This document shows positions 54,436 to 58,620 of a stretch of 64,000 nt of DNA, one piece after another. This stretch comes from Pseudomonas subflava. Lineage in GTDB: Bacteria; Pseudomonadota; Gammaproteobacteria; Pseudomonadales; Pseudomonadaceae. The stretch spans positions 62,001 to 126,000 of the forward strand of contig NZ_JAMXBF010000001.1 in the NCBI RefSeq assembly GCF_023823685.1. The letters run 5' to 3'. The translations under genes and the position numbers were made by a program. Every line of letters starts with the position of its first letter. Within the stretch, counting starts at the first letter, position 1. Under the pieces are notes generated by a model. The model was not told the DNA's origin. It searched no databases and saw nothing but the letters and a program-made list of their open reading frames with translations.

Positions 54436-54846
54436 TCAGTCGGCCACCTCGTCATAGCCGCGCCCTTGCCACTGCAGCAAGCACAGCCCATGACCGAAGG
54501 GATCGCGCAGCACCGCTAGGCGCCCGTACGGCCTGTCCGTGGGCCCGCGCTCCAGCGTCGCGCCCGCCGCCAACGCGCGGGCCAGCGCGACATCCAGATC
54601 ATCGACGACCACGTCCAGGTGCAACGGCGTCCAATGCGGGCCGTAATCCCGGCCCTGCTCGCTCTCGGCAACCGGTCGGCTACCCGCCTCCTGATGCAGC
54701 AGGTAGACCGGCACGGCCGCGCCCTCCAACTCCGCCACACCGCCATCGAACAGGTAACGCCGCAGACGCAGCCCAATGGCCCGCTCATAGAAGGCCAGGC
54801 CTGCTTGCAGGTCGGGTACGTCGAGGTTGATCAGCAGGTCGGTCAT
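54436..54846 (-). CDS. VOC/glyoxalase-superfamily protein
   Basis: A 136-aa single VOC domain: 'LLINLDVPDLQAGLAFYERAIGLRLRR', 'HLDVVVDDLDVALARALAAGATLE', 'PYGRLAVLRDPFGHGLCLLQW'. It could be a resistance or glyoxalase-like protein; metal ligands His (HLDV) and a possible acidic residue are present but incomplete. It lies immediately beyond the truncated distal attC site, in the same direction as the cassette genes, so it could be read from the array or be the remnant of a last cassette. Its GC-rich, host-like base use argues for a host gene. Confidence 0.8.
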   Translation of the reverse strand: MTDLLINLDVPDLQAGLAFYERAIGLRLRRYLFDGGVAELEGAAVPVYLLHQEAGSRPVAESEQGRDYGPHWTPLHLDVVVDDLDVALARALAAGATLERGPTDRPYGRLAVLRDPFGHGLCLLQWQGRGYDEVAD

Positions 54847-54880: not shown

Positions 54881-54907
54881 AAGCGGCAGTTGAGCGCATT
54901 GTTAGGC
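54881..54907 (-). other. truncated distal attC site
   Basis: Only one arm remains: AGCGGCAGTTGAGCGCATT and the core GTTAGGC (54901-54907). It matches the same arm of the complete sites at 55643-55731 and 56001-56089. The other arm and the conserved GATTAAGCTAA stretch are missing, so this end of the array is degenerate and the sixth cassette is probably not excisable here. Confidence 0.8.
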
Positions 54908-55267
54908 GCTGGGCCTCACATAAGTGCCGTACATACGTTCCATGTGTTTTTCAAACTCCATGCTCCCGCTGATATTCCAGAATGACGAGTCTACGGCTTG
55001 CAGCCTACAGCACTCAATTCCATTTATTAGCCCAGAAAAGCATCCATCAACTGTTTGATGGATTCCTGCATAAAGCTGCCAGAATTCTAGGTTTTTTATG
55101 CGAGCAGGCTCGGTTGAGATTTTTTCAATTTCTTGGGCCATTTCCCCAAGGCACCAATCTATTTGAATTTCCCACTCTTCGATTGCGAAGAATTTTTCTA
55201 TATCGCATTTGAATACGACCATATCGAAAAGCTCTTCGTTATCTCCGTGCTGTCGGATCGAGATCAT
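54902..55267 (-). CDS. integron cassette 6: unknown protein
   Basis: A 121-aa acidic protein, low-GC and unlike the host: 'EELFDMVVFKCDIEKFFAIEEWEIQIDWCLGEMAQEIEKI' and 'FWQLYAGIHQTVDGCFSGLINGIECCRLQ'. No signal peptide or known domain is recognised. Its stop lies within the truncated attC. It is the cassette farthest from IntI and so the least likely to be expressed from a promoter near attI. Confidence 0.72.
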   Translation of the reverse strand: MISIRQHGDNEELFDMVVFKCDIEKFFAIEEWEIQIDWCLGEMAQEIEKISTEPARIKNLEFWQLYAGIHQTVDGCFSGLINGIECCRLQAVDSSFWNISGSMEFEKHMERMYGTYVRPSA

Positions 55268-55271
55268 AAGC

Positions 55272-55359
55272 GCCTAACGGTTAAGCTAAAAGGCGAGCAA
55301 AAGCGCAGCTTTTGCGAGTCCAGTGAGCGAAGCGAACGGTGTTGAGCGTATTGTTAGGT
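55272..55359 (-). other. attC site (88 bp)
   Basis: Bounded by GCCTAAC (55272-55278) and GTTAGGT (55353-55359), with inner inverted arms including AAAAGCGCAGCTTTTG. Typical imperfect dyad of a Pseudomonas-type attC. Confidence 0.88.
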
Positions 55360-55374
55360 CAGCACTTGTTTTGT

Positions 55375-55632
55375 TTACTCATAAATCGCGCATTCTTCTT
55401 TTTCTATGTCTACAAGCACGATGCTTGGACCATCGAGGATGCTGCCGCTCTTCGACCACTCAACTAGCACTGACCATTTGATATAGATTTTTCGATCTTT
55501 GCTATTTTCTGCTGTTAAATCAGGCTTGGCCCCTACGCATTTCCATTCCCATCCCTGAGTGCTTTGGGATGACAGAAACGAATTCGCTAGTGCTAGCGCT
55601 TTTTCTTCTGCTTCCGTATTGCTGATATGCAT
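55375..55632 (-). CDS. integron cassette 5: unknown small protein
   Basis: An 85-aa acidic protein: 'EAEEKALALANSFLSSQSTQGWEWKCVGAKPDL', 'DRKIYIKWSVLVEWSKSGSILDGPSIVLVDIEKEECAIYE'. It looks like a small alpha+beta domain with no known motif; a structural resemblance to immunity-type proteins is only an impression. Flanked by attC sites on both sides, so this is a complete cassette of about 370 bp. Confidence 0.72.
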   Translation of the reverse strand: MHISNTEAEEKALALANSFLSSQSTQGWEWKCVGAKPDLTAENSKDRKIYIKWSVLVEWSKSGSILDGPSIVLVDIEKEECAIYE

Positions 55633-55642
55633 AACTTAAAGG

Positions 55643-55731
55643 GCCTAACGATTAAGCTAACGAGCGGCCAAAAGCGTAGCTTTTGGACGTCCAGCGAACG
55701 AAGTAAGCGACAGTTGAGCGCATTGTTAGAT
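55643..55731 (-). other. attC site (89 bp)
   Basis: GCCTAAC (55643-55649) to GTTAGAT (55725-55731), with the inner dyad AAAAGCGTAGCTTTTG. The stop codon of the next cassette gene (55726) lies inside the core. Confidence 0.88.
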
Positions 55732-55992
55732 GGCACCTCCACGCTGCAGGTATTGGCCAAGTGCGATACTGGCGACGAAGCCGATGAAAAATATTACGCC
55801 TGTGCGCTGAATATAGCGCTGGCTTTTTGGCAGAAGCTTGGCTGACAGAAACCACCACGGGCTTACTGAGCCTAGTAGTTTGCGTGATGGATTGTTCTCG
55901 CGCTCAACTACAAAGGCAGCACACCAGCAGACCAAGAAGCCTGCCATAGATGCCAGAGCTGTGAATGATAGGGCGGTGCGCACGAAGTCCAT
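55726..55992 (-). CDS. integron cassette 4: small membrane protein
   Basis: An 88-aa protein with two hydrophobic segments ('ALSFTALASMAGFLVCWCAAFVV' and 'TGVIFFIGFVASIALGQYL') joined by a basic loop with 'SVSPWWFLSAKLLPKSQRYIQ'. The frame is open further upstream through the attC, but ATG 55992 lies within the cassette and is chosen. Not recognised; a small inner-membrane protein is likely. Confidence 0.7.
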   Translation of the reverse strand: MDFVRTALSFTALASMAGFLVCWCAAFVVERENNPSRKLLGSVSPWWFLSAKLLPKSQRYIQRTGVIFFIGFVASIALGQYLQRGGAI

Positions 55993-56000
55993 TTGGTGCC

Positions 56001-56089
56001 TTCTAACGATTAAGCTAATGGGCAGACAAAAGCGCAGCTTTTGGCTGTCCAGCGAGCGAAGTGAGCGGCAGTTGAGCGCATTGTTAGAG
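56001..56089 (-). other. attC site (89 bp)
   Basis: TTCTAAC (56001-56007) to GTTAGAG (56083-56089), with the inner dyad AAAAGCGCAGCTTTTG. The left core starts with T instead of the usual purine. Confidence 0.85.
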
Positions 56090-56092
56090 CCG

Positions 56093-56566
56093 TTACTCGC
56101 CGCATAGTGCTTTGTAGCCAACCTGAATAGATACACCATTTATAAGAGTTCTGGCAAAGGACTCTACCTGCTCAAAAATGGGTAGGGCTTTGGCTCCAGT
56201 AACAATATATTCAAGCTGCTTCGTGGAGTAGAGCTGGTTTAGCAACTCCATTGCTCCTTCCTCTTCTGGCTTGAACTTTACGTGCGACAGCAAGCCTAGC
56301 TCTTTGGCTTTTCTATGGCATGCATGCAGGTCGTGGCCGTATTTTTTTGAGCGAAGCTCGCGAAGCTGTACACCTTTATTAAGAAGGTATGATTTAAGGC
56401 CTAGCTCAATAGAGTGCCCTATCAAATAAAGGCTTGGGATCGACGGGATTAGTTTTCTGGGGTTTTCAGTTGCAGATTGCACTTCAACTGCTTTTGCTGC
56501 GCCATAAAACTCATGAGCATAGCGAGCAAGACCAATCGGTGTTGTTCTCTCTGGGTTCTCATGCAT
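56093..56566 (-). CDS. integron cassette 3: HEPN-like protein
   Basis: A 157-aa helical protein. The stretch 'IPSLYLIGHSIELGLKSYLLNKGVQL' followed by 'KKYGHDLHACHRKAKELGL' resembles HEPN-domain proteins (helical, often RNases or partners of nucleotidyltransferases in defence and toxin-antitoxin systems), although the catalytic RxxxxH is not evident. It starts at ATG 56566 and ends 4 bp before the next attC. No nucleotidyltransferase partner is in the array. Confidence 0.68.
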   Translation of the reverse strand: MHENPERTTPIGLARYAHEFYGAAKAVEVQSATENPRKLIPSIPSLYLIGHSIELGLKSYLLNKGVQLRELRSKKYGHDLHACHRKAKELGLLSHVKFKPEEEGAMELLNQLYSTKQLEYIVTGAKALPIFEQVESFARTLINGVSIQVGYKALCGE

Positions 56567-56576
56567 GGGTAGTAGG

Positions 56577-56652
56577 CTCTAACGTTTGGTTAAGGGGCCG
56601 CGGTACGCGGTCCCGAGCGAGCGAAGCGAGTGGCTTGAACCAGTTGTTAGGC
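56577..56652 (-). other. attC site (76 bp, divergent type)
   Basis: CTCTAAC (56577-56583) to GTTAGGC (56646-56652). Inner sequence GGGGCCGCGGTACGCGGTCCC differs from the other sites (GTTTGGTTAAG instead of GATTAAGCTAA), suggesting a cassette from another host's array. Confidence 0.83.
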
Positions 56653-56666
56653 CTTCCACTCCAATG

Positions 56667-57125
56667 CTAGAGTTGCTCATAATTTAGTGCTACCCATAGC
56701 TTTGAAACCTCCTCCCTGAAGGCGCTCGGACAAAAACTGGCTACTGATATATTTGGAATCCAGTCAACATCATGGCTCAACTCAGTATCTTTGGTGAATC
56801 CAAAGCGAGCCCATTTTATTTCTGATTGAGTTGATATCTGCTCGGCAACGAGTACGGTGCAGTGGAAATCCATGTCGTCTGGGCATACTAGTAGCGGAAC
56901 AATTACCGATTCACCAAGACGCTCCCAGTTATAGAGGCGCTCCCAAGCTAAATCGATATCAGCCCTAGATGTTAAGTGGCCGTGAACAAAAGCTAGGGGC
57001 TCACATAGTTCGTGCTTTACCCAACCTTTTATCCAGGTCTCAAAATATTCCCCGTTTATCCATAACACGGGATATCCCGCTTCCGCGTGCTCTGGCGGGT
57101 AGGAACCTGCAATGATGTCGAGCAT
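56667..57125 (-). CDS. integron cassette 2: unknown protein
   Basis: A 152-aa acidic soluble protein: 'GYPVLWINGEYFETWIKGWVKHELCEPLAFVHGHL', 'AWERLYNWERLGESVIVPLLVCPDDMDFHCTVLVAEQ', 'VDWIPNISVASFCPSAFREEVSKLWVALNY'. The WIPN/CPSAF ending recalls immunity-like or DUF families seen in other cassette arrays, but I cannot name it. ATG 57125. Confidence 0.72.
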   Translation of the reverse strand: MLDIIAGSYPPEHAEAGYPVLWINGEYFETWIKGWVKHELCEPLAFVHGHLTSRADIDLAWERLYNWERLGESVIVPLLVCPDDMDFHCTVLVAEQISTQSEIKWARFGFTKDTELSHDVDWIPNISVASFCPSAFREEVSKLWVALNYEQL

Positions 57126-57131
57126 TAATCT

Positions 57132-57207
57132 GCCTAACGATTAAGCTAAGGGGCCGGCTTCGCCGGTCCCAGCGAACGGAGTGAGCGCTTTGAGCGCATT
57201 GTTAGGT
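57132..57207 (-). other. attC site (76 bp)
   Basis: GCCTAAC (57132-57138) to GTTAGGT (57201-57207). It keeps the GATTAAGCTAA stretch of the 88-89 bp sites but has a shorter loop, GGGCCGGCTTCGCCGGTCCC. Confidence 0.88.
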
Positions 57208-57220
57208 GTTGGCCTCATGC

Positions 57221-57508
57221 TTAGAGCGTGCAATAGGCTGAAGCAACTTGGGAGCCGTTGTCTTTAGTGCAAACCATTTTTCCCGGCGTGGAATTTTTAT
57301 CACACAGCATCTCTGACCATTCTTTTTGCGACTGACACGAATCAAGATCTTTAAATCGGGCGGCAACAAAGCAGGATTTCTCACCAGGCGAGCAAATAAC
57401 ATATTTCACCGGCGTTTCACCTTTGGCGTTTTTGACGCCGTCGTCCTCTCCCGCTGTGCAACCGGTAAGAATTGCTAAGGCTGCAAATGCGTAACAGTTA
57501 ATCTTCAT
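57221..57508 (-). CDS. integron cassette 1: small lipoprotein-like protein
   Basis: A 95-aa protein with a lipoprotein signal ('FAALAILTGC', Cys near residue 16) and a Cys-rich mature part (Cys in 'VICSPGEKSCF', 'DSCQSQKEWSEMLCDK', 'MVCTKDNG', 'AYCTL'), suggesting disulfides in the envelope. The start ATG 57508 lies just inside the attI-side core GTTAGGT. It is the first cassette and the most likely to be expressed. Family not recognised. Confidence 0.73.
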   Translation of the reverse strand: MKINCYAFAALAILTGCTAGEDDGVKNAKGETPVKYVICSPGEKSCFVAARFKDLDSCQSQKEWSEMLCDKNSTPGKMVCTKDNGSQVASAYCTL

Positions 57509-57512
57509 AAAC

Positions 57513-57519
57513 ACCTAAC
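57513..57519 (-). other. attI recombination core
   Basis: GTTAGGT on the minus strand, where the first cassette joins the integrase-proximal region. The full extent of attI toward 57.6 kb cannot be set by eye. Confidence 0.7.
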
Positions 57520-57530
57520 TATAAGTAGAC

Positions 57531-57566
57531 GACGCATGTGGCGTAATTTTTTACGCCACATGTGTC
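57531..57566. repeat. 16-bp inverted repeat between attI core and intI
   Basis: GACGCATGTGGCGTAA (57531-57546), loop TTTT, then TTACGCCACATGTGTC (57551-57566); 15 of 16 pairs match. It could be a terminator/attenuator, a regulator site for intI or cassettes, or part of the attI structure. Confidence 0.6.
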
Positions 57567-57654
57567 GCATAACGTTCCTTGTCGTCCGGCAAGTCCTTGT
57601 CTAGCCTACAAAACGCATCAGGAGATGCGATATCAGTCAAGGAGCAATAGCGAC

Positions 57655-58620
57655 ATGGATGACAAGCCCAAACTGCTCGATCAGGTGCGCGAGCAAATTC
57701 GCCTGCGACACTATTCGATTCGCACTGAAACTGTCTATCTGGAGTGGGTGAAGCGGTTTATCCGCTTTCATAAATATCGCCATCCTCAGGAGATGGGCGC
57801 GGCCGAGGTGGAGGCGTTTCTGAGTGATCTGGCGGTGCGCCGGGATGTCTCGGCATCCACGCAGAACCAGGCGCTGTCGGCGATTCTCTTTCTTTACAAG
57901 CAGGTGCTGCAGGTCGAATTGCCCTGGATGGACGGGGTGATTAGGGCGCGCAGGCCGCAGCGTTTACCGGTGGTGCTGACGCGGGAGGAAGTGGCGAGCG
58001 TGTTGGCGCAGTTGGATGGGACGCTTTGGCTGGTGGCCAGTCTGTTGTATGGCTCGGGTATGCGGTTGATGGAGGTGCTGCGTCTGCGGGTCAAGGATGT
58101 CGAGTTTGCTCGTTGCGAGATTCTGATTCGCGACGGTAAAGGACAGAAGGATCGGGTGACCATGTTGCCGCGCAAATTAGTGGCGCCCTTGCAGTTGCAT
58201 CTGGAGCGGGTGCGGGCGCTACACGCCCAGGATTTGCAGGAGGGGTTCGGGCGGGCAAACTTGCCACACGCATTGGCTCGCAAGTATCCGAATGCAGCTG
58301 CCGAATGGGCCTGGCAGTTCGTGTTTCCTTCGGTCAACCGTTCTGCAGACCCGCGTTCAGGCGGAATCTTTCGCCATCATTTGCATGAGAAGACCATACA
58401 GCGAGCCATCCGCAACGCGGTGCGGCGGGTAGGGCTGCACAAGCCGGCCACGCCGCACACGCTGCGCCACTCCTTTGCCACGCATCTGCTCGAGAGCGGT
58501 CAGGATATCCGCACCGTGCAGGAGCTCCTGGGGCATTCGGACGTGAAGACGACGCAGATCTACACCCATGTGCTCAATCGTGGCGGCATGGGGGTGTTGA
58601 GTCCGTTGGATCGGGTGTGA
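57655..58620 (+). CDS. intI: integron integrase IntI (tyrosine recombinase)
   Basis: A 321-aa tyrosine recombinase with the complete catalytic set: Arg137 ('[10 protein letters not shown]'), His268 and Arg271 ('[12 protein letters not shown]'), His294 ('[11 protein letters not shown]') and Tyr303 ('TQIYTHV'). The integron-specific insertion lies at about residues 203-226 ('[20 protein letters not shown]'), which separates IntI from XerC/D. It recombines attI and attC to capture and excise cassettes. ATG 57655 has GGAG upstream; in-frame ATG 57625 is an alternative. The sequence is like P. stutzeri-group chromosomal IntI proteins. The gene runs opposite to the cassettes, as usual. No premature stops, so it is probably active. 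Confidence 0.95.

Follow-up and report, generated by a model that had tools for sequence, protein, structure and literature searches.

The window, that is, the whole stretch of 64,000 nucleotides of Pseudomonas subflava analysed here, contains an integron integrase gene (intI), an attI region and an array of six cassettes (table 1). Read along the minus strand from intI, the order is the attI core, cassettes 1 to 5, each followed by its attC site (attC1 to attC5), cassette 6 and a truncated attC6. The direction of intI is opposite to that of the array, with all six cassette genes reading away from it, which is the standard arrangement. As described in the first-pass annotation, the cassettes are AT-richer than their surroundings, with 44-53% GC compared with 65% in the window and 65-69% in the flanks; its coordinates for the array and intI were correct. 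The end of the cassette 4 gene (to 55726) overlaps attC4 (from 55731). Rfam and tRNA scans gave no match.

Table 1. Features of the integron locus, with positions in the window
Feature	Position	Strand	Remarks
VOC/glyoxalase-like flank gene	54436..54846	-	Pfam PF18029, E 5e-18; 69% GC
attC6, truncated, array terminus	54907 to about 54881	-	R'' end only (~27 bases)
Cassette 6 gene	54902..55267	-	121 aa; without relatives in the data searched
attC5	55359-55272	-	88 bp; profile E 9.3e-13
Cassette 5 gene	55375..55632	-	85 aa; without relatives in the data searched
attC4	55731-55643	-	89 bp; profile E 1.3e-11
Cassette 4 gene	55726..55992	-	88 aa; hydrophobic segment near N-terminus
attC3	56089-56002	-	88 bp; profile E 2e-13
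Cassette 3 gene	56093..56566	-	157 aa; possibly HEPN-like
attC2	56652-56577	-	76 bp; profile E 4.4e-16
Cassette 2 gene	56667..57125	-	152 aa; unnamed family, P-L-L-V-C-x-D-D ... E-Q ... W-x-R-F-G
attC1	57207-57132	-	76 bp; profile E 4.7e-18
Cassette 1 gene	57221..57508	-	95 aa, start ATG 57508; predicted lipoprotein, lipobox LTGC
attI region and intI leader	57513..57654		core GTTAGGT at 57519-57513, limit of conservation
intI, integron integrase	57655..58620	+	321 aa, complete, start ATG 57655

The intI product scored 530 bits against the NCBIfam model TIGR02249 'integron integrase' (cut-off 265) and matched IntI4 (PDB 2a3v) with E 3e-89 over residues 8-320. All five catalytic residues (R137, H268, R271, H294 and Y303, read from motif positions) are intact and the integron-specific insert aligns with that of IntI4, in agreement with what had been claimed for this gene. 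The integrase is 91-96% identical in related Pseudomonas genomes. Compared with four relatives, intI showed dN/dS of 0.024-0.042, and about half of the synonymous sites differed. It is thus under strong purifying selection and has remained functional through a long divergence. The draft genome, which is of Pseudomonas type and comprises 31 contigs (4.44 Mb), has no other intI.

Five complete attC sites of 76-89 bp and a truncated one had been proposed for the array, and the same five were recovered by an independent profile. This profile was seeded with the sites of the PDM15 locus (see below) and trained on 71 attC sites of nine relatives, the window being left out in order to avoid circularity. 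Across the 64 kb, its matches to complete sites (E 4.7e-18 to 1.3e-11) were these five and no others, and the best match in shuffled controls (10 of the window and 10 from the array composition) had E 2.8. Over 26 bases, the attC6 remnant matches the start of attC4 with 96% identity. There are two main sub-types of site, GGTTCAA...TTAACCAA and GCGCTCAA...TTAGCTTAAT, plus GGCT/AGCC forms. In the relatives, the L''/L' stem shows paired changes (GGTT/AACC and GGCT/AGCC), and the sub-types and forms just named mean that it varies on both sides. A failure of the sites to fold, which had been raised as a possibility, was not what we found: their bottom strands form predicted hairpins with such paired changes, although in single-sequence folding the individual z values, from -1.4 to -3.1, were only modestly better than those of shuffles.

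At the intI end, an alignment of 15 loci (14 relatives and the window) shows conservation between the core site and intI, and beyond the core the sequences are unrelated unless the first cassette is shared. A break of this kind at the attI core is what the insertion of cassettes at attI would be expected to leave. A search of 57450-57700 revealed no canonical LexA box (CTG-N10-CAG), and SOS control is therefore not supported. Promoter-like hexamers facing the array occur inside intI (57737-57710, minus strand), where a cassette promoter would sit. By consensus count there was 1 such match where 3.2 would be expected by chance; the sequence is kept in six relatives, but there it is located in coding sequence.

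Comparison with related loci

In a sample of 400 congeners, intI was found at E <= 1e-90 in 43, this genome included. The closest intI loci were those of P. alcaligenes MB-090714 (L034, 96%), Pseudomonas sp. PDM15 (L035, 95%) and Pseudomonas sp. 8AS (L036, 94%), followed by P. guryensis (L037, 93%) and Stutzerimonas sp. S1 (L038, 88%). In all five intI adjoins rimO, an arrangement also seen in over 20 related loci, copies of one genome among them. In L034, L035 and L038, trmO lies on the other side at a distance of 4 to 10 kb; trmO-fpr-lysR is a block conserved across the genus. The earlier description of the array as flanked by rimO and trmO holds, with rimO beside intI and trmO on the far side, and the detail to be added is a VOC gene standing between the array end and trmO. 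L035 has a VOC homologue (79%) at the corresponding position next to trmO, and L034 lacks the gene there. We considered this gene as a seventh cassette and rejected it, since it is conserved beside trmO in L035 and is GC-rich.

The shared location contradicts a recent insertion of a mobile, resistance-type integron into the chromosome, and we rejected this explanation as hardly credible. Integrons can be mobilised, and the intI relatives of other Pseudomonas lineages do not all adjoin rimO; nevertheless, the nearest relatives also carry intI beside rimO. Moreover, the array and its edges lack transposition, qacE, sul and resistance genes according to family searches and the ORF list, as the first-pass annotation had noted for resistance, qacE-delta1, sul1 and transposition genes, and the attC sites show a homogeneity that those of mobile integrons lack (PMC8618304).

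None of the six cassette genes is present in L034-L038, and the arrays of the relatives comprise 1 to 20 attC sites in the stretch compared. The array DNA gave 307 matches to the compared loci, none of which, in a relative, went beyond an attC by more than 25 nt; the array of the window and those of its relatives thus have only attC sequence in common. Additionally, a search of 249 congeners gave no homologue for five of the six cassette genes and, for the remaining one, cassette 2, only relatives of 32-40% in 16 of these genomes. The cassettes are thus not ordinary chromosomal genes of the genus, and their content differs completely between species in which intI, attI and rimO are conserved. 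The conserved location, the attI, the selected intI and the variable cassettes, compared between species, indicate that the locus is almost certainly a resident chromosomal integron of Pseudomonas, as had been proposed; the refuting conditions named with that proposal, checked at the level of species, did not overturn it.

Sedentary chromosomal integrons have been named for Pseudomonas stutzeri (Q, BAM), P. alcaligenes and P. mendocina (PMC3108266), and a passage of the same paper credits the recombination activity of the P. stutzeri integron to Holmes 2003. The integron of the window resembles them in its intI facing away from the array, its attI, its short array of unnamed cassettes and its homogeneous attC sites, and its near relative L034 is itself labelled P. 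alcaligenes; it differs from them in cassette content. The kind of system is long known, and its interest lies in the unnamed cassette genes, which are the usual state of such arrays. Our data add one well-delimited integron to those of Pseudomonas. Because its named relatives share the rimO side and hold entirely different cassettes, turnover becomes measurable.

Products of the six cassettes

Searches of Pfam, NCBIfam, PADLOC and PHROGs assigned none of the six products to a family with confidence, which bears out their description as unnamed small proteins. That their functions are undescribed, as had also been suggested, is true, but it is the rule for such integrons; the six genes could enter functional screens as candidates, on a par with thousands of other cassettes. 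In V. cholerae, no phenotype was detected under the conditions examined when the whole integron had been deleted (PMC11551772), a result that calls for caution in assuming a strong function for each cassette.

The product of cassette 1 looks like a small lipoprotein (MKINCYAFAALAILTGC) and that of cassette 4 is probably a small membrane protein. The latter had no relatives in the data searched, and its match to a K+/H+ antiporter subunit was too weak to be retained (E 0.001; 19 bits, the cut-off being 93).

Cassette 2 matched no Pfam family, and invariant positions are common to the alignment with its relatives in the other congeners. Another relative (about 30% identity) was found on the 5 kb plasmid pTT1-3-4 of Acinetobacter towneri (L139, 671-1195). 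There the gene is framed by pdif-like Xer sites at 610-637 and 1190-1217. These have 2 and 0 mismatches to the pdif consensus, and by chance no such site would be expected. The cassette 2 family seems to travel both as an integron cassette and as a pdif module. The one viral contig with a match to cassette 2 was set aside: the gene lies at the contig end among genes also present in Pseudomonas chromosomes, and the contig is probably host DNA.

Viral contigs gave no match for cassettes 3 and 6, nor did phage records for cassette 3, and a match of cassette 3 to PDC-S19 was too weak (E 0.004). A relative of cassette 3 is encoded on a Rhizobium plasmid (36% over residues 17-114, E 5e-6), and one of the pair weakly touches Pfam HEPN (E 0.11). 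HEPN proteins in integron cassettes are a published idea (PMC3710099). By our own reading, the G-H-[DN]-L motif of cassette 3 and its Rhizobium relative resembles that region of HEPN proteins; however, the structure 3jrt of the integron cassette HEPN family (PMC3710099) was unmatched by the cassette 3 sequence, which had no PDB match. The Rx4-6H motif reads R-S-K-K-Y-G-H in the window, and its R is replaced by K in the only relative. As the catalytic R is thus not conserved between the two, we do not claim membership for cassette 3, although it may be HEPN-like. Structure predictions (AlphaFold for cassette 3) had mean pLDDT of 42 for cassette 3 and 43 for cassette 2, too low for use.

Since the cassette 2 family is an integron cassette here, is framed by pdif sites on the Acinetobacter plasmid and is scattered in Pseudomonas chromosomes, cassettes 2 and 3 might be read as uncharacterised conflict functions (phage defence, toxin or immunity) moving in more than one recombination system, a reading that we regard as rather doubtful.

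A second attC cluster and the turnover of the array

Searches of the same genome with attC4 and attC1 found further sites on contigs C7 (115250-115323) and C8 (366-439, 1036-1111 and 1506-1579), and the C7 site is identical to attC1 over 74/74 bases. The end of C7 and the start of C8 are the same 120 bases, so that the two contigs probably join into one cluster, with at least four attC sites, small unnamed genes and no integrase. Such a cluster is probably a CALIN, that is, an attC cluster without an integron integrase (PMC8618304, PMC12444791); it resembles these elements in its at least four attC sites of the window type and its lack of intI, and differs in lying outside the window.

The identity of attC1 with the C7 site suggests a recent shared origin, which argues against a formerly active integron that is now frozen, its array a remnant on which IntI no longer recombines. 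The array is indeed short, with six cassettes and a truncated distal attC, and no recombination has been seen so far, the comparison being one between species. Nevertheless, intI is intact, with the low dN/dS given above, attI and the five attC sites are well preserved, and the array content is completely unlike that of sister species. We therefore consider a frozen array very improbable.

In a resident chromosomal integron, the recombination chemistry of IntI can be predicted from its family: it would recombine folded single-stranded attC with attI, so that new cassettes would enter at the intI end, and excision between attC sites would remove cassettes. Together, these two processes would make the array turn over and the platform stay. 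Also by analogy with the family, the first cassettes would be transcribed from a promoter at the intI end. In such arrays, cassettes near intI are expressed and distal ones are mostly silent. The most likely role of the array is to store and shuffle genes.

A functional IntI is able to act in trans and mobilise CALINs (PMC12444791), and the intI of the window would be the likely actor in trans on the second cluster. More divergent attC-like sites were observed at both ends of that cluster (C7 115250-115443, L161; C8 1-2000, L160).
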